Of a stretch of 37,677 bases of DNA, positions 8,818 to 17,226 are shown piece after piece (position 1 is the first letter of the stretch; every line of letters begins with the position of its first letter). The position numbers and the translations under genes are program-made. This DNA is from Pseudomonadota bacterium. Its GTDB lineage: Bacteria > Pseudomonadota > Gammaproteobacteria > Pseudomonadales > Moraxellaceae. The notes below the pieces were generated by a model, which saw only the letters and a program-made list of their open reading frames with translations, did not search any database and was not told the origin of the DNA. The DNA lies in contig JAJZHP010000011.1 of NCBI GenBank assembly GCA_021804355.1, forward strand, positions 1-37,677, in the 5' to 3' direction.

Positions 8818-9912
8818 ATGACCAATACCTTATTTACCCCTGTACACGTAGGTTCTATGACCTGGCCCAATCGCATCGTGATGGCACCTTTGACGCGTAT
8901 GCGCGCCACCCAACCAGGTGATGTTCCGGCACCGATGTCTGTTACGTATTACGAGCAACGTGCAACAGCTGGGTTGATTATCTCTGAGGCGGCACAGATC
9001 TCGCCGCAAGGTAAAGGCTACATGGCTACTCCGGGTATTTATTCCGCTGAGCAGATTCAAGGTTGGCGGAAAGTGACGGATGCGGTTCATGCCGCTGGTG
9101 GTCGTATGGCTTTGCAGTTATGGCATGTAGGGCGCGTATCTCATCACTCCCTGCAGCCTGACCAACAGTTGCCTGTCTCTGCATCAGCACTGCCTTATCA
9201 AAACCGTACAACGATCATGGGGGAGGAGGGTACCCCGGTACGCGTGGATTGTGACACGCCGCGTGCGTTGCGCACCGATGAGATCCCAGGCTTGGTGGAG
9301 ACTTACCGAAAAGCGACAGAAAATGCGCGCGAAGCCGGTTTTGATATGGTGGAAGTACATGCTGCCCATGGATATCTACTGCACCAGTTTCAGTCCACAC
9401 AAAGTAATCATCGCTCAGATGCTTACGGGGGATCTCTGGAAAACCGTGCCCGGTTGACCCTGGAAGCGCTGGATGCATCGATTGCAGCTTGGGATGCTGA
9501 TCATGTGGGCATCCGAATTTCACCCCTGGGTATCTTTAATGGCCTGGATGATCATGATGGGGAGGCGATGGGGTTTTACTTGGCGGAGCAGTTTCATCAG
9601 CGCAAAATTGCATATTTGCATTTGTCAGAACCAGACTGGGCCGGTGGTCCGGTATTAAGCGAAGCCTTCCGGCGCGGATTGCGTCAGCGATTCCCAGGGG
9701 TACTGATCGCAGCAGGAAACTACACGCAGGAGAAGGCGGAGCCTTTACTAGCCGCCGGCCTGATTGATGCCGTGGCTTTTGGGCGCAGTTACATCGCTAA
9801 TCCTGATCTCGTGCGCCGTCTACAACTGAAGTCAGCGCTCAATGCGCCTCGTCCCGAGTTATTTTATGGTGGCGATGAAAAAGGTTACACCGATTATCCT
9901 TTGCTGCCGTAA
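8818..9912 (+). CDS. nemA: N-ethylmaleimide reductase, Old Yellow Enzyme family
   Basis: A 364-residue FMN-dependent, NAD(P)H-using ene-reductase of the Old Yellow Enzyme family. It reduces activated alkenes such as N-ethylmaleimide, quinones, nitrate esters and methylglyoxal-type electrophiles in the cytoplasm. Visible family features: [13 protein letters not shown] near the N-terminus, substrate-binding His181 and His184 followed by Tyr186 ([13 protein letters not shown]), the [10 protein letters not shown] motif, and the C-terminal FMN phosphate region ([12 protein letters not shown]). A good ribosome site AGGAG (8806-8810) lies seven bases before the ATG. It is in one operon with nemR, matching the E. 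coli arrangement (without gloA). Its 3' end overlaps the convergent ATP-grasp gene by 19 bases. Confidence 0.95.
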
Positions 9913-11042
9913 ACCTGGGCAAAACCTCCGCCAGGCGTACGAAAGTTTGTCGTTTGCCCGCGATAGAGGCGGGCACACAGCAGTAGTAATTGACCTGCGT
10001 AGGCGTAGGCGCGCAGGTCAACCTTCATCGGTTCGCTGGTTCCGGGTAATACTAGCGTACTAGGTGGGCAATAGCCCTGCGCGACGTAAGTACCATCCTG
10101 CATCAGCTCAGTTAATTTGCCCCGGGTTATTTTGCGACCGCTGTAAGTGCCTTTACTGCCATATCCTGCGGCGGGCTTAAAGAACCAGTCGTGCCTATGC
10201 GTCCACCAGTAGTCAGCATCCTGAGCTTGCATGACCTGCATGGGAAGCCATAGGGAACTAAGAGCCTGAGCATGTGCAGGATCATATGGATTAACCCATG
10301 TTGCCAAGTCGATCAGATTGCGTTTGTCAGCATACAAGGCATGGGTCTGAGGACTAGGGACCAGCACATGCTGTTTTAGAGCAGGGTGATCGGTCAGATA
10401 AAAATCAGTAAGTCGATTATAAATCAGGGTATGTGGATCCTGATCGATCAGAGAGCAGGCATCGACCAGGGTTGATTTTAGTCCGTTACGCTCAAATAAC
10501 TCACGATAGAGCAGAAATTCTGGCAACAAAAACTGAGTTGCAGGTTGGTCATCAACGATCAAGACCTGTTGCAGGCTTAGCCCGGGGCGTTGTTGCTGCC
10601 AAGCATCCTGTAGCATACGCATCACCACAGCCTCTATATCCACATCATGAGGGGGGAGGCCAGCTTTCGCTAAGCGTTGGCGTTGCCAGGCGTTGAGCAA
10701 GAGGCCGCCAGCATTGGTATTGATTTCAATCAGGCGGAGTTCACGCTGGTCCACATGAAAATCATAGCAAAGAAAAGCGCCGGGAACCGCAGGACCCTCT
10801 TCCTGTAAACCATGGCGCTGTAAAAGGCGTTGTCGTAGTTGGGGCGCCTGCAGGGTGGCTTCTAAGAGGGCCAGTATCTGACGTAATTGCAGCACCATAT
10901 CAGGTGCCATGAGCAGATTATGCGGCGCCATCAGGCGTTGAGCCTGGATAAACGACGGCTCTCCCCAACCAGCAGGGAGCTCGTGATCAAGCACAGGGGG
11001 GGTATTTAGAATTTCAAAAGGAGGAGAAAATATAGGTATCAT
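9894..11042 (-). CDS. ATP-grasp fold protein of unknown substrate
   Basis: 382 residues. Features that suggest an ATP-grasp ligase: IEINTNAGG (105-113), an acidic/Asn metal-binding motif; [10 protein letters not shown] (238-247); the nucleotide-binding stretch [16 protein letters not shown] (287-302) with Lys289; KVDLRAYAY (340-348); and [13 protein letters not shown] near the C-terminus. The Glu-x-Asn motif comes before the Lys/Gly-rich loop, the reverse of classical ATP-grasps. This suggests a circularly permuted member, as in the glutathionylspermidine-synthase-like and DUF404/407 groups. Such enzymes form amide bonds between a carboxylate and an amine. The start at 11042 has AGGT six bases upstream. 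I know no characterised homologue. It is separated from the upstream TRAP gene by a strong terminator. Confidence 0.7.
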
Positions 11043-11123: not shown

Positions 11124-13226
11124 TTAGTGGCCTATCATGAACAGAGGAACAAAGGCCACTGTCAGCAAGCCTATCGACATGACGATAACGGGTACAATCC
11201 AGCGCTCATAGCGACGGAAGAAGCGAAGATTTTTAACTTCGGCATCAGCCTTGTCAATTTCTTCTTCGCCGACGACGTGACGTGTCAACAGCTGATTCAA
11301 AGCAACAGGCGGTAACAGATAGCCTAGTTCAAAGGCGACCAGCACCATCATCCAGAAGTGGACAGGATCTATGCCTGCTTTGTAGGCGATGGGAGCCAGG
11401 GTGCTCGACACCAGAATCACCGCCCCAAAAGGATCCATGAACATACCCACCAGCACTTTAGTCACCACCAGGAAGCTCATCGCTACCCAAATATTGGGGA
11501 AGTGTGTGGGTGCCAAGTCCATAATGCCTGATCGGGATACGACGCCACCCATGGTCAAGCTCAAGGCCATCAGCATGATCAGAGCACCAATATGTCCGGT
11601 AGTTTCATTGGTAGCAAAACGAATGGAACGCTCCAGACCCTGACGACGGTTGCGCTTTTTGGGTGGATTCTTTTCATGAGGATTACGACGTAGCTTGTCG
11701 AAAATGACCAGCACCAACATGATGATGGGCATAATGACCGGAGCCGTAAACTCATTCAGCGGTGTGTCCAGCAACAAGCGGTAGCCAACAACCACCAAGC
11801 CGATGATGATGATATAAGGAATAACAGGGACGCAGTTACGTATCATGCCCGGTATCGCCACACTAGGCCGTTCGATCTTCACTCGATGTGTTCGATGGAT
11901 CTGGGAAACGATAAAGAAGAGGGTAGATGTCAGGATGAAGACCCAAAAGCCCCAATGAAACAAGGCTGCTGTAGTAACTTCTTTGTTCAAAGCCGCAATC
12001 AGTACCACGAGCAGACAGGGGCGTAGCACGACACCTAGAGATCCAGACATGGCGGTGGCGGCGAGAGCAAACTGACGGCTACCGCCTGCTTGTTTGACTT
12101 CGTTATAAATCAAGGGGCCAGCTGCAATGACAAAAATCCCTGAGGCACCGGTATAGGCGGTAGGAACCGCTGCTGCCAGCAAAATGATATAGGTCAGCAT
12201 TTCAGGAGAGAATTTCCACGGACGTAAGATGTCGAGGAAAAGATCTACGACACGTGACTGTTTGAGCAACATGCCGGTCCAGATGTAGAGCGAAAGGTTC
12301 AAGAAGATGGAAGAAAGGTCCATCATTTGATTCATATAAATAGAAAGCGCAGGATGGTCACCACGCGTTATGAAGAAAATACTGCCATTGATCGCCATAA
12401 AGGCATAGATCGGAATGGACAGCAGCGCTTTGCCCAAGGTTCCACCCGGTTGGGCATGGGCCGGTGTCTGGAAGATCTGAGCGATGCTCACCAGGGTCAA
12501 TAAACTGAACATGGTGATCCACGTATAAAATATCCAGGGTTTATCGACGGGTACACCTGAGTTCAAATCCACTCTGAGGTGACTGACGCAGGAAAATACC
12601 AGCAGCGCATTAGCGATAGCCATGGCAATGGCTTGCACCTTGAAGTCCAGAACAGAACGTCCCGGTCGCAGCGTAATATGATGAAATCCCAGGGTTGTCG
12701 TCATCGAGGCAAAGAATACGATCAGCAATAACAGCAGGGGGCGGTTATCCATACCGAAATGAAACAGCCAGAAAAAAGCCGTCTCAAAGGTACGATAGGC
12801 GCGCAGGCCGGGTGTGATGTGCTGTACGATCTTTTGGTAAATGACATGCCGCTCGCGGCATTGATCCAGTGAGGTTTGAACCGATTGGCGAACTGCCTGC
12901 GGATCTACCGGCGATGAGGCAAATAACGACCCAAAATCATCGCTGCTACTTGAAGATTGGGTGGCAGCTATTTGTTTCGCAACCTCAGCGTCAATGTTGG
13001 CATTGGCATCGCAGGTGGGGAGGGTTGGGTCAGCTCGCAGCATAAAATATTGCACGCCGGCGGCAGGATCACCAAAGATCTTCTCCCCCATACGTAACAA
13101 CTGGCCATGGAACATTTCCCCGGTTCCTATGATCAGCGTCAGCAGTAGTAACACAAACATGGGCAAACTGGACAGCCATTCGCCTATCGTTCGATTTAAT
13201 AGCACTGGTTTTGCAGAGTGCATCAT
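11124..13226 (-). CDS. TRAP transporter permease, fused small (DctQ-like) and large (DctM) subunits
   Basis: A 700-residue inner-membrane protein. The N-terminal ~260 residues hold about four hydrophobic segments and a ~130-residue polar insert between the first two, with two Cys (in LPTCDANANID and LDQCRERH). This part probably corresponds to the DctQ-like subunit. Residues ~265-700 have the many-helix, glycine/proline-rich DctM pattern (ILLAAAVPTAYTGASGIFVI, ATAMSGSLGVVLRPC, FMDPFGAVILVSSTLAPIAY). TRAP transporters import organic acids using a Na+ gradient and need a periplasmic DctP binding protein, which is not encoded nearby. AAGGGATG precedes two adjacent ATGs; 13223 is as likely a start as 13226. 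The substrate is unknown. Confidence 0.88.
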   Translation of the reverse strand: MMHSAKPVLLNRTIGEWLSSLPMFVLLLLTLIIGTGEMFHGQLLRMGEKIFGDPAAGVQYFMLRADPTLPTCDANANIDAEVAKQIAATQSSSSSDDFGSLFASSPVDPQAVRQSVQTSLDQCRERHVIYQKIVQHITPGLRAYRTFETAFFWLFHFGMDNRPLLLLLIVFFASMTTTLGFHHITLRPGRSVLDFKVQAIAMAIANALLVFSCVSHLRVDLNSGVPVDKPWIFYTWITMFSLLTLVSIAQIFQTPAHAQPGGTLGKALLSIPIYAFMAINGSIFFITRGDHPALSIYMNQMMDLSSIFLNLSLYIWTGMLLKQSRVVDLFLDILRPWKFSPEMLTYIILLAAAVPTAYTGASGIFVIAAGPLIYNEVKQAGGSRQFALAATAMSGSLGVVLRPCLLVVLIAALNKEVTTAALFHWGFWVFILTSTLFFIVSQIHRTHRVKIERPSVAIPGMIRNCVPVIPYIIIIGLVVVGYRLLLDTPLNEFTAPVIMPIIMLVLVIFDKLRRNPHEKNPPKKRNRRQGLERSIRFATNETTGHIGALIMLMALSLTMGGVVSRSGIMDLAPTHFPNIWVAMSFLVVTKVLVGMFMDPFGAVILVSSTLAPIAYKAGIDPVHFWMMVLVAFELGYLLPPVALNQLLTRHVVGEEEIDKADAEVKNLRFFRRYERWIVPVIVMSIGLLTVAFVPLFMIGH

Positions 13227-13552
13227 TCATCCCTTTTTGTTATATCAACGTTCAACGTCACCCAGTTCGGTGCATCCAGTCCTGTGGTGGGCGCGCTGAT
13301 AATAAAGCCATGCGCGAATCTCGACCACTGTCATGCATCAAAATTTCCGGGAATTTGTTTAAATTTTCAGTAAAAACCCTCGTCAAGCTCGCATTCTAGG
13401 TGAATCATGTCTTGGCGTCACTGACGTAAGCGACCGAATAGGTAGTCCATTAGGGCCATGTGTCAGATACATATTGTCATCACTTTACGGGTGTACATGA
13501 CCTGAAATAGTGGTGAAAATAGCCGCCGATTAAAAGAGTGCAAGGTATGGGC
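13227..13552 (+). other. Divergent regulatory region between TRAP and START-domain genes
   Basis: About 325 bases with no gene. Two dyads stand out: the near-perfect 16-bp palindrome AAATTTCCGGGAATTT (13341-13356, one mismatched pair) and CGTCACTGACG (13416-13426, perfect 5-bp arms). Either could be an operator serving the divergent genes. No near-consensus promoter was identified with confidence. Confidence 0.4.
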
Positions 13553-14242
13553 ATGATGGTGCGATGGAAATGGGCGCTGAGGGTAGTCATGGTGTCAGTC
13601 CTGGTGGGTGGGGGAGCCTGGGCTGTCACGCCTCCTGAACCTGCAGGGCCCTGGCAAACCGTGATCAACAGTCCTGAGTTGGATATCGTCATCGCTACCC
13701 GTGCCAAGCAGGGAACTAATATCCGTGAATTTTCAGCAGTGACTACGGTCAAAAGCTCTCTGGCTGGACTGGTCGCGCTGATTGAGGATACCGGTAATTT
13801 ACCCAACTGGATGCATCGCATCGGTCGTGTCGATATTGTGCATCGCCAGGATGATCATGACTTGACAGCCTATACAGTGATCAAGGCTCCCTGGCCTTTG
13901 CATGATCGCGATACCTTCATGCATTCCCATCTGTCTCAAGATGCGAAGACAGGAACGGTGACCATCAGTAGTGTGAGTGAGCCTGGCGGAGTGGGTCTGC
14001 AGACTGGATGCATTCGCATGCCTGAGATGGATACCGACTGGGTTTTTCAGCCTCTGCCCGGTCATCGCGTGAAAGTGACGTTTAGGGGGTTTGGATTGCC
14101 AGGCGGGGTGGTGCCGGATTGGGCGGTCAACTTGGTGGTGACCGATTTGCCTTTTGGCAGTTTGCGTAATTTAAAACGACAAATTCAGCGTCAGAAGTAC
14201 CAGGATGCTCATTTTGATACCATTAAGGAAGTTAATCCATGA
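13553..14242 (+). CDS. Exported START-domain protein (first of a tandem pair)
   Basis: About 229 residues with an N-terminal signal peptide (MMVRWKWALRVVMVSVLVGG, likely cleaved after AWA). It is followed by a START/SRPBCC lipid-binding fold: VIATRAKQGTNIREFSAVTT, TGNLPNWMHRI, the APWPLHDRDTFMH motif typical of bacterial START proteins, then VKVTFRGFGLPGG and a C-terminal amphipathic helix. START domains bind a hydrophobic ligand in a deep cavity; the ligand here is unknown. ATG 13553 is preferred to GTG 13538 because AAGG (13542-13545) lies seven bases upstream. Its stop overlaps the start of a second START gene by four bases, so the pair is translationally coupled. Confidence 0.82.
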   Translation: MMVRWKWALRVVMVSVLVGGGAWAVTPPEPAGPWQTVINSPELDIVIATRAKQGTNIREFSAVTTVKSSLAGLVALIEDTGNLPNWMHRIGRVDIVHRQDDHDLTAYTVIKAPWPLHDRDTFMHSHLSQDAKTGTVTISSVSEPGGVGLQTGCIRMPEMDTDWVFQPLPGHRVKVTFRGFGLPGGVVPDWAVNLVVTDLPFGSLRNLKRQIQRQKYQDAHFDTIKEVNP

Positions 14243-14892
14243 AGTGGTGTTTAGGGTTGTTATTAGGGCTCCTGGTCGTCAGTGGGGCTCATGCTACGGA
14301 TTGGAAATTGGCGCGGGATAGGCATGGGGTACAGGTTTGGAAAGCTGAAGTTGCCGATTCGGCGGTGGAAGCGTTTAAAGCCAGAACCATTGTGCATAGT
14401 AGCCTGTCAGGGCTATTAGCCTTGTTTTATGATGTGCAGGATGCTCCGCGCTGGATAGATCGTTGTTCTCGGGTAGAGGCCCTGCAGCGAAATGATGCAC
14501 GTCATGAATATACTTTATTGATGGAAACTAATATGCCCTGGCCGGTCACTGACCGTGATGCCGTCATGAAAGGGCATTGGTATCAGGATCCGGCTACCTT
14601 AATTCTTCATTTGCAGGCAGGTGATGCTGATTCTTCCATTTACCCCCCGAGGCCAGAGTATGTGCGTACCCGGCAGTTGCGCTCCAACTGGACATTTAAA
14701 CCGCTAGGTCATGGTGATGTAGAAGTCACGACGGAAGGGCATGTCAACCCCGAGGGACATTTACCCGCTTGGGTCATCAATATTGTGCTGGAAGAGTCTC
14801 CGTATAATACGATGCGTAATCTGCAGACCATTATTAAGGAGTCTCAGTTTCAGGAGGCACATATGTCGGGCGTTACTGAGCCTATGCCGTAA
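14239..14892 (+). CDS. Exported START-domain protein (second of a tandem pair)
   Basis: 217 residues; signal peptide MKWCLGLLLGLLVVSGAHA, then a START domain parallel to its upstream neighbour: WKLARDRHGVQVWKAEV, DAPRWIDRCSRVEAL, TNMPWPVTDRDAVMKGH, TEGHVNPEGHLPAWVINIVL. The two genes are clear paralogues by motif order (PWP-x-DRD, LPGG/GHLPAW). The ATGA overlap indicates tandem duplication within one operon. It is predicted to act in the periplasm as a binding or carrier protein for lipids or aromatics (inference from fold). A TPR/glycosyltransferase gene follows after 57 bases and may be co-transcribed. Confidence 0.85.
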   Translation: MKWCLGLLLGLLVVSGAHATDWKLARDRHGVQVWKAEVADSAVEAFKARTIVHSSLSGLLALFYDVQDAPRWIDRCSRVEALQRNDARHEYTLLMETNMPWPVTDRDAVMKGHWYQDPATLILHLQAGDADSSIYPPRPEYVRTRQLRSNWTFKPLGHGDVEVTTEGHVNPEGHLPAWVINIVLEESPYNTMRNLQTIIKESQFQEAHMSGVTEPMP

Positions 14893-14949: not shown

Positions 14950-17226
14950 ATGACCATGCTTCAAGATGATCCGGATGATATAGACCCCGATGCCCGAGAG
15001 CAGATATCAATGCAGCTTTGTGCACAGGCTCTAGACCTCCACCAGCGGGGAGAACTGTCCCAAGCGAAAACGCTCTACGAGCAGGTATTGAAACGTGATC
15101 CGCAACATTATGATGCTCTGCACTTGCTTGGGGTTGTTTTCTTGCAAACAGGCAATTTCCTCCAAGCAGAGCAACTGATTACCCGTGCTTTGGCTATTCA
15201 TGAACAGCAAGCCATCGTCCACTACCATCATGGATTGACACGGCAGGCACTTCAACAGTATGAATCGGCCCTAGGGTGTTTTGAACGAGCTGTGGCTTTA
15301 CAGCATGATTACCTTGATGCGCTGGTTGCTCGTGCGGGAATACGGCGTATTTTGGGTCAGCACATGGCAGCTATTGCTGACTACGATCAAATTATTCAGT
15401 TCCAGCCTGATTCGGTAAGTACCTGGTTCAATCGTGGTAATGCCTGTCAAATAGTGGGGCGTTATGAGGATGCTGTGCAGAGTTATGCTGCCGCTCTGGC
15501 TATTCAGCCAAGTCACTGGCAGTCTTGGGTCAATCGAGGCAATGCATTGCAATCACTAGCTCGATATCAGGATGCGGTGTCCAGTTATGACCAAGCTCTT
15601 GTATTAAACCCTATGCAAGCTGAGGCATGTCTTAATCGAGGCAATGCGCTGCGACAACTTGGAAATCCAGCTGAAGCTATTAGTAGCTACCAGCGTGCGC
15701 TTTCCCTGCAAAGTGATTTTGTTGAAGCTTATAAAATACTTGCCTATGTCCAGCGCGAACTTAAATGTTATGAAGAGGCGATTGCAGGCTTCGAGAAAGT
15801 GTTGCAACTAGAGCCAAGCATGGCCTACCTGGCAGGGGAGTTGTTGTACACTAAGATGCATGTATGTCGGTGGGATGATTTTGAAGCGCAGAAGACTGTC
15901 CTGGAAAATTCTGTGCTTTTGGGTGAAATGCCCAGTTCCCCCTTTCCGTTGCTTTGCATTACGGACCATGCCCAGGTACAGCTCAAAGCAGCCACTAACT
16001 ACGCAAGGGAGAAATACCCTGCGCGGATGGTTCCTTTCCCATCTGTAGCAGGGAATGTCGGTGCTAAGCTTAAAATTGGCTATTTCTCTCCTGATTTCCG
16101 CAGTCATGCCGTTAGTTTTCTGATAGCAGGTCTTTTACGGCAACATGATCGCCAACGGTTTGAGATACATGCATTTTCTTTCATCCATAAGCCTGATGAT
16201 CCCTGGCAACAGCGGGTGAACTCGGCAGTAGATGTTTTTCATGATGTCAGTGGCTGCTCTGAAGCTGACATAGTCGATTTGGCTAGAAAATTGGCTTTGG
16301 ATATTGCTGTAGACCTCACCGGTTATACACATAGCAACCGTACGGAGCTCTTCGCTCGACGATTGGCTCCCGTACAAATTAGCTATTTGGGTTTTCCTGG
16401 CACGATGGGTGCGAGCTATATCGATTACCTCATCGGGGATCGCACGATAACTCCCGCTGATCATTTTGATAATTACAGCGAAAAAATAATTGTTATGCCT
16501 GACAGTTTTCAGGCAAATGACGATCAGAGAATTATTGGGCCATGTTTAGGTCGTAAGCGATGGCATTTGCCGGAAAATGCTTTTGTTTATTGCAGTTTCA
16601 ATAATCCGTTCAAGCTCACTCCGCTCATTTTTTCCGCCTGGATGCAAATTCTTCGGGCAACGCCGGGGAGTGTGTTGTGGTTATTGCAGGAAACTCCTGA
16701 GCAGTCAGCTCGTTTGCTGAAGGTAGCGAAGAGTTATGCGGTGAATGCCGATCGACTTATCTTTGCCCCGCGTATCGAATATGAGGCTCATTTAGCTCGC
16801 TACCAACTCGTAGACTTAGTTCTGGATACCTTGCCCTTTAGTGGTGGAGCTAGTACTAGCGATGCTTTGTGGGGTGGGGCGCCCGTATTGACCTGTTTGG
16901 GGACAACCTATGCGGGCCGTATGTCGGCGAGTTTATTGCGCGCTGTAGGACTACCCGGTCTGGTGACCCAGTCGATGCAAGATTATATTAACTTAGGTAT
17001 TGAGTTAGGGCAGAATCCTGCTCAAATCGCTGTCTATAAAGCTAAATTAAACTTATCTGATCATAACAAATTACCTCTTTTTTCTACCCTGCACTTCACC
17101 CGCAATCTAGAACAGGCCTATCAGACTATTGCAGGAAGGGCAAGGAGAGGCGAAGCGCCTCAGCACGTCTGGGTCGCGAGCGAAAGTAACGAACACGGAG
17201 ATCAGTGGCAGCCAGCGACTCTATGA
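14950..17226 (+). CDS. TPR protein with GT41 O-GlcNAc transferase (SPINDLY/OGT-like) domain
   Basis: 758 residues. The N-terminal ~290 residues contain about seven to eight tetratricopeptide repeats (repeated pattern such as WFNRGNACQIVGRYEDAVQS and WVNRGNALQSLARYQDAVSS). The C-terminal part (about 373-720) is a GT41-type catalytic region: GYFSPDFRSHAV (377-388, with the conserved His386), VDLTGYT, YLGFPGTMGA, the FNNPFKLTP motif with the nucleotide-sugar-binding Lys555, APRIEYEAHL, and DTLPFSGGASTSDALWGGAPVLT. Such enzymes O-glycosylate Ser/Thr of proteins bound by the TPR superhelix; the donor and target here are unknown. AAGGA at 14941 precedes ATG 14950; ATG 14956 is an alternative. The 3' end overlaps the convergent GDPD gene by six bases. 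Confidence 0.9.
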   Translation: MTMLQDDPDDIDPDAREQISMQLCAQALDLHQRGELSQAKTLYEQVLKRDPQHYDALHLLGVVFLQTGNFLQAEQLITRALAIHEQQAIVHYHHGLTRQALQQYESALGCFERAVALQHDYLDALVARAGIRRILGQHMAAIADYDQIIQFQPDSVSTWFNRGNACQIVGRYEDAVQSYAAALAIQPSHWQSWVNRGNALQSLARYQDAVSSYDQALVLNPMQAEACLNRGNALRQLGNPAEAISSYQRALSLQSDFVEAYKILAYVQRELKCYEEAIAGFEKVLQLEPSMAYLAGELLYTKMHVCRWDDFEAQKTVLENSVLLGEMPSSPFPLLCITDHAQVQLKAATNYAREKYPARMVPFPSVAGNVGAKLKIGYFSPDFRSHAVSFLIAGLLRQHDRQRFEIHAFSFIHKPDDPWQQRVNSAVDVFHDVSGCSEADIVDLARKLALDIAVDLTGYTHSNRTELFARRLAPVQISYLGFPGTMGASYIDYLIGDRTITPADHFDNYSEKIIVMPDSFQANDDQRIIGPCLGRKRWHLPENAFVYCSFNNPFKLTPLIFSAWMQILRATPGSVLWLLQETPEQSARLLKVAKSYAVNADRLIFAPRIEYEAHLARYQLVDLVLDTLPFSGGASTSDALWGGAPVLTCLGTTYAGRMSASLLRAVGLPGLVTQSMQDYINLGIELGQNPAQIAVYKAKLNLSDHNKLPLFSTLHFTRNLEQAYQTIAGRARRGEAPQHVWVASESNEHGDQWQPATL

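Follow-up and report, generated by a model that had tools for sequence, protein, structure and literature searches.

The window analysed here is a 37,677-nucleotide stretch of DNA (contig JAJZHP010000011.1, positions 1 to 37,677, assembly GCA_021804355.1) from a bacterium of the Moraxellaceae. It carries a gene for a TRAP permease in which DctQ and DctM are joined in a single protein and, divergent from it, two overlapping genes for exported START proteins, START-A and START-B (Table 1). The open reading frames are as described in an earlier reading made from the letters of the window alone (the sequence-only reading), which had also pointed to a 325-base control region between the divergent genes. 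That gap is real, and its length depends on the start codon: 311 bases with the listed GTG start and 320–329 bases if an ATG just inside START-A is used. When the divergent control region was compared among five kin, the sequences fell into two unlike sets and no common operator was identified. START-B matches Pfam START with 42.9 bits against a cut-off of 22. START-A lies below every Pfam cut-off, shares 29% identity with START-B and was recognized through the START group profile, which in turn matches the solved bacterial START protein 3qsz (E 3e-31). The window proteins belong to the same profile family as 3qsz and differ from it by their signal peptides, that of START-A having been read from the sequence by eye, and by having a transporter as neighbour.

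Table 1 Features of the permease-START locus, with positions in the window
Feature	Positions	Strand	Basis or remark
Fused DctQ-DctM (TRAP) permease, 700 aa	11124-13226	-	Pfam DctM, fold model
Insert between TM1 and TM2, residues 42-138, with Cys72 and Cys123	12813-13103	-	Predicted periplasmic side
Intergenic region between divergent start codons	13227-13537		311 bp
START-A, exported START-type protein	13538-14242	+	Profile of START group; signal peptide by eye
START-B, exported START protein	14239-14892	+	Pfam START; overlaps START-A by 4 bases

Pfam DctM (PF06808) covers permease residues 268–688 (E 6e-24; 85 bits against a cut-off of 23.8), and no Pfam match was obtained for DctQ. A structural model predicted from a 44-row alignment (mean predicted local distance difference test score, pLDDT, 79.6) was aligned through residues 8–696 with the fused TRAP QM structure 8y4w (Z 25.1, 519 residues, 14% identity); further fused QM structures, 9pym and 8thj, were matched with Z 23.9 and 23.6. 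Because the alignment with fused QM structures runs over residues 8–696, we take the DctQ half to be real despite the missing Pfam match, and the model confirms the predicted DctQ-DctM fusion, in agreement with the sequence-only reading. The permease resembles the fused DctQM permeases SiaQM and IseQM in its modelled fold over the full length but differs from them in sequence (~14% identity), in the family of its proposed binding protein and in the possession of a ~95-residue insert between transmembrane helices TM1 and TM2. Judged by the helix ends, this insert measures ~95–110 residues in the window protein, and it is 85–103 residues long across relatives. All 129 permease relatives examined retain the two residues Cys72 and Cys123, as do all 110 that remain when copies at least 95% alike are set aside, so that the two-Cys insert noticed in the sequence-only reading is a constant part of the permease family, although it is shorter than the ~130 residues given there. 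The positive-inside rule and the QM fold place the insert on the periplasmic side, where the two cysteines may form a disulfide and the insert may serve in docking. The suggestion that the permease carries its own periplasmic domain survives in the sense of a conserved, predicted periplasmic segment; being far smaller than a solute-binding protein, the insert is too small to be the binding protein itself.

Partners of the permease were sought in two samples. The first comprises 194 genomes of the same order, in which a permease genome is one holding a relative that scores above 400 bits; 33 genomes qualify, and the best score among the remaining genomes is ~74 bits. The match is split into two pieces in several order genomes because of a longer inner loop. 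From this order sample 40 permease loci were taken with their flanks, often several per genome. The second sample consists of 80 named loci, the best 80 of 555 confirmed stretches in the GTDB species collection, which include Acinetobacter, Agitococcus, Perlucidibaca, Limnobacter, Aquabacterium, Pseudomonas and others. Locus counts cover these 120 loci (40 order and 80 named), some of whose flanks stop at a contig end; L035 is the same contig as L081, L037 the same contig as L131, and L089 and L096 nearly duplicate each other at START.

An AdeT protein (Pfam PF19582, AdeT1_2) is encoded in all 33 permease genomes and in one of the 161 others (G173), hence in 34 of the 194 genomes (Fisher p 2e-36, uncorrected for relatedness). 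The presence of AdeT and of the permease agrees within genus label g23 (four genomes with both, two with neither) and within g56 (one with both, two with neither). The typical locus reads, in order, a lipoprotein of ~345 residues that we call LIPO, AdeT (~335 residues) and the permease. All three genes stand together in 31 of the 40 order loci; two others have AdeT and the permease, one has the permease with START, and six have the permease alone. AdeT lies in the flanks of 33/40 order loci and 48/80 named loci, LIPO in those of 31/40 and 57/80, and the complete set of three in 46/80 named loci. Where a named locus has no AdeT in the permease flanks (32 loci), AdeT was found elsewhere in the genome in each of the 23 cases checked; with three named genomes chosen as positive cases, the count is 26/26. 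As judged from sequence, fold prediction and genome comparison, the usual partner of this permease family is an AdeT1/2-type, DctP-like protein, and a contact between the two is predicted.

The assignment of AdeT itself is clear at the level of the family, four scanned proteins matching Pfam AdeT1_2 at 7e-86 to 2e-108. A profile comparison of AdeT with DctP gave a probability of 97% (E 3e-11, 254 columns). Pfam scans of six AdeT proteins returned AdeT1_2 in all and a weak DctP match in three; no TAXI family was listed among these scans, which included no dedicated TAXI search. A sequence search of solved structures returned only NusA (E 0.03–0.05), which we took as a chance match. In L058, L060 and L061 several AdeT genes form arrays along with tandem permeases, and one genome (G200) has up to 13 AdeT matches. 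In the genome of Alkanindiges hydrocarboniclasticus (that of L127), a same-strand gene of the fatty acid desaturase family, which we take to resemble AlkB, follows an AdeT gene at a distance of 239 bases (L221, 7400–10113); this neighbourhood is in keeping with a hydrophobic ligand. Likeness of the AdeT fold to DctP-type binding proteins has already been published (PMC11467057), and beyond that fold comparison our search of the open PMC library returned no paper tying AdeT to a TRAP permease.

The lipobox cysteine of LIPO is invariant in 23 of 23 alignment rows. A model of the Agitococcus copy (mean pLDDT 85) found its best structural matches in the TatT entries 3u64 (Z 16.9, 249 aligned residues, root-mean-square deviation 4.0) and 4di3 (Z 16.9), followed by the TPAT entry 8g52 (Z 16.4) and the sterol carrier 7t1s (Z 12.6), the first unrelated row standing at 12.2. 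The likeness to TatT rests on this VIA structure comparison together with a profile comparison of LIPO with TAtT (66%, E 6e-5, 248 collinear columns), for which four mismatched profile pairs run as a control gave 0.2–1.6%; a sequence search of solved structures returned no relative of LIPO. These modelled and profile-based likenesses point to LIPO as a TatT-like, all-helical lipoprotein, which is a usual partner of the permease family and is commonly encoded just upstream.

START genes adjoin the permease in two arrangements. In eight loci (L083, L084, L088, L089, L090, L091, L096 and L135) a START gene follows the permease on the same strand at a gap of 148–760 bases; AdeT is present in all eight and LIPO in seven, L091 beginning inside AdeT. 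Agitococcus (L083, L084) and Fluviicoccus (L090) belong to the Moraxellaceae, and the other same-strand START loci are labelled Moraxellaceae in their records. In five loci (the window, L075, L079, L080 and L081, the last being L035) a START pair is divergent from the permease at a gap of 258–330 bases, and the 4-base overlap of the pair is kept in all of them. In a tree of 36 START proteins (16 permease-adjacent and 20 paralogues picked from profile matches), START-B of the window clade and the eight same-strand operon STARTs form one clade with support 97/92. An iterated profile directed at more distant START genes in the collected loci found nothing beyond the same 20 open reading frames. 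In several Moraxellaceae a gene for a rhomboid-type membrane protein (L083 12132–12716; L140 4164–4784; assigned by Pfam on the L083 copy) separates the permease from START, namely in L083, L084, L088, L090 and L091, or else AdeT from the permease. The genome of L083, Agitococcus lubricus DSM 5822 (G217), has 27 START-profile matches in 3.7 Mb, a marked expansion.

The closest known parallel is the Treponema TPAT system, TatT-TatP(T)-TatQM, which likewise combines a TatT-fold helical lipoprotein, a DctP-like binding protein and a fused QM permease. For TPAT, it has been proposed that lipids pass from an outer-membrane lipoprotein by way of a binding protein to the permease (PMC5812351). The set described here differs from TPAT in that the binding protein is of the AdeT1/2 family (PF19582), the lipoprotein lies outside Pfam TAtT, the permease has the two-Cys insert, the parts are on different contigs in the window genome, and some Moraxellaceae have a linked START gene. 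A more distant comparison is offered by the BstABC sterol carriers of Methylococcus; their membrane part is BstA, an RND-type (resistance-nodulation-division) protein and not a TRAP permease, and their binding protein is PhnD-like. The likeness lies in the pairing of a T-component-fold protein, BstC, with a periplasmic binding protein, BstB (PMC10942540).

Computation establishes the folds and families of these proteins, their co-occurrence and linkage, and their separation in the window genome. Taken together, we consider it rather probable that the window permease supplies the membrane component of a TRAP importer, divergent but of the TPAT type, that takes up a lipid-like ligand, START being a possible helper in the periplasm. 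We infer a route in which the lipoprotein would take up a hydrophobic ligand and hand it to AdeT, and AdeT would dock on the permease, with the Cys-bearing insert contributing to the docking surface. Ion-coupled transport would then carry the ligand across the inner membrane. In some Moraxellaceae, the exported START proteins could act as an extra carrier or store of ligand on the same route. Candidate ligands are lipid-like molecules such as fatty acids, hydrocarbon-derived lipids or sterol-like compounds.

Several observations weigh against this reading. Four scanned LIPO proteins reached no Pfam cut-off and gave no TAtT (PF16811) match; Foldseek alone returned no match for the LIPO model at E 0.001; the TPAT entry 8g53 (Z 10.3) ranked below unrelated rows; and helical models often reach Z ~14 in the VIA structure comparison without a clear relative. 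The permease stands alone in 6/40 order loci and 17/80 named loci, LIPO occurs without AdeT in 11/80 named loci, and genus label g57 disagrees, G173 having AdeT without the permease. One study reports efflux activity of AdeT1 in E. coli (PMC7687900). As to START, it adjoins the permease in 2 of the 33 permease genomes of the order sample and in 12 of the 80 named loci; 27/33 permease genomes have some START (six gave no match), as do 41/161 genomes without the permease; and the kin loci L076–L078 have no START beside the permease, their genomes holding START copies elsewhere. The START-B clade also contains two copies unlinked to a permease (C113 of the window genome and one in G025), and START-A falls outside the operon START clade, grouping with copies on C93 and on C51 of G035.

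Most of these START observations favour a different account, in which the START genes are chance or historical neighbours whose linkage reflects no joint function, the permease, AdeT and the lipoprotein making up a complete system by themselves. This account has to contend with the occurrence of two linkage arrangements, same-strand and divergent, with the clade that START-B shares with the operon STARTs, and with the overlapping START pair kept in the window, L075, L079, L080 and L081; we regard it as a serious contender, short of probable. START is a lineage-restricted associate of the permease and, adjoining it in only 2/33 sample genomes, looks accessory. The same-strand and divergent linkages may or may not be of one origin: since START-A lies outside the clade and the START-B clade holds unlinked copies, the two may have arisen apart. 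The association of permease and START advanced in the sequence-only reading holds in that the genes adjoin in more than one lineage (eight same-strand and five divergent loci), but most permease loci have no START nearby (39/40 order loci and 68/80 named loci). A place for START on this route in some Moraxellaceae is plausible, and a full four-part lipid importer, made up of a TatT-like lipoprotein, AdeT, the Cys-inserted DctQM permease and a START protein as dedicated carrier in the periplasm, is a tentative proposal.

A further alternative is that AdeT1/2 is a periplasmic partner of RND-type drug efflux and that its pairing with the permease reflects export. Resistance papers speak of AdeT1 and AdeT2 of Acinetobacter, which belong to the same Pfam family as the binding proteins proposed here, as efflux or membrane fusion proteins, and AdeT1, described as a membrane fusion protein, was reported to increase ethidium efflux when expressed in E. 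coli BL21(DE3), the difference in E. coli KAM32 not being significant (PMC7687900). On the other side, our profile comparison and the published fold comparison (PMC11467057) place AdeT with DctP-type proteins, and the linkage of AdeT is to a TRAP permease; we regard the efflux account as improbable. The importer reading challenges, without disproving, the description of AdeT1 as a membrane fusion protein with efflux activity in one E. coli strain (PMC7687900).

The genes for LIPO, AdeT and the permease are not together in the window genome, which, like those of its kin G035 and G194–G199, is a draft assembly. Its single full permease is on contig C158, and its two AdeT genes are on contigs C76 and C5. 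C76 (L157) carries pnp, LIPO and AdeT in this order, then mraZ, and no permease in the remaining 1432 bases of the contig (the names pnp, truB, mraZ, rpsO, ExbB, ExbD and TonB are presumed from the look of the sequences, not from a family search). LIPO and AdeT are likewise followed by no permease within the 614 to 1494 bases available behind them in six kin genomes (L171, L177, L179–L182), and the window genome and its seven kin (G035, G194–G199) each have one full permease and two AdeT genes on different contigs. A pnp-like gene precedes LIPO in 19/80 named loci, and in Paraperlucidibaca (L131, the same as L037) truB, pnp, LIPO, AdeT and the permease follow in succession. This pattern is most simply explained by a departure of the permease from an ancestral operon linked to pnp. 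The window permease very likely has a binding protein, encoded elsewhere in the genome, and the sequence-only inference of a permease lacking one is not borne out: DctP-like AdeT1/2 is present in the genome and a LIPO-AdeT pair lies on C76. That START proteins replace the solute-binding protein, as that reading had proposed, might be suggested by the fact that START adjoins the permease where AdeT is unlinked (the window, L075 and L079–L081); yet those genomes still hold two AdeT genes each, AdeT is present in all 33 permease genomes and in all eight same-strand START loci, and we consider such a replacement very unlikely. A PF03480 DctP was looked for beside the permease and none was found, as the sequence-only reading had stated; the only one in the window genome is on contig C159 and, although as the sole PF03480 protein it could in principle serve the permease, it sits within its own TAtT-DctP-DctQ-DctM set, so that this pairing is hardly credible.

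In the window genome the second AdeT gene, on C5, has behind it, on its own strand, a TonB-dependent receptor gene identified by Pfam and further genes that look to us like ExbB, ExbD and TonB (L158, 2442–7744). This neighbourhood suggests outer-membrane uptake of the AdeT ligand. As to a general linkage of AdeT with TonB receptors, among 21 loci, several with short flanks, only L211 shares it with the window genome. Within the window, a gene for a 758-residue protein with tetratricopeptide repeats and a GT41 glycosyltransferase (14950–17226, + strand) directly follows the START pair, and a 382-residue protein with a weak match to circularly permuted ATP-grasp (9894–11042, - strand) is encoded behind the permease, an arrangement kept in L075–L078.

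Our literature search found no functional study of this permease family, for which the present analysis provides a concrete, testable set of partners. It also raises a possible case of a lipid-binding START protein feeding a secondary transporter in the bacterial envelope; if the four-part importer is real, a START protein would be at work in a bacterial transport route, and AdeT1 and AdeT2, surveyed as Acinetobacter drug-efflux genes, would be the binding proteins of an importer. The AdeT1/2 proteins counted in resistance surveys may serve a TRAP-type importer by binding nutrients or lipids.

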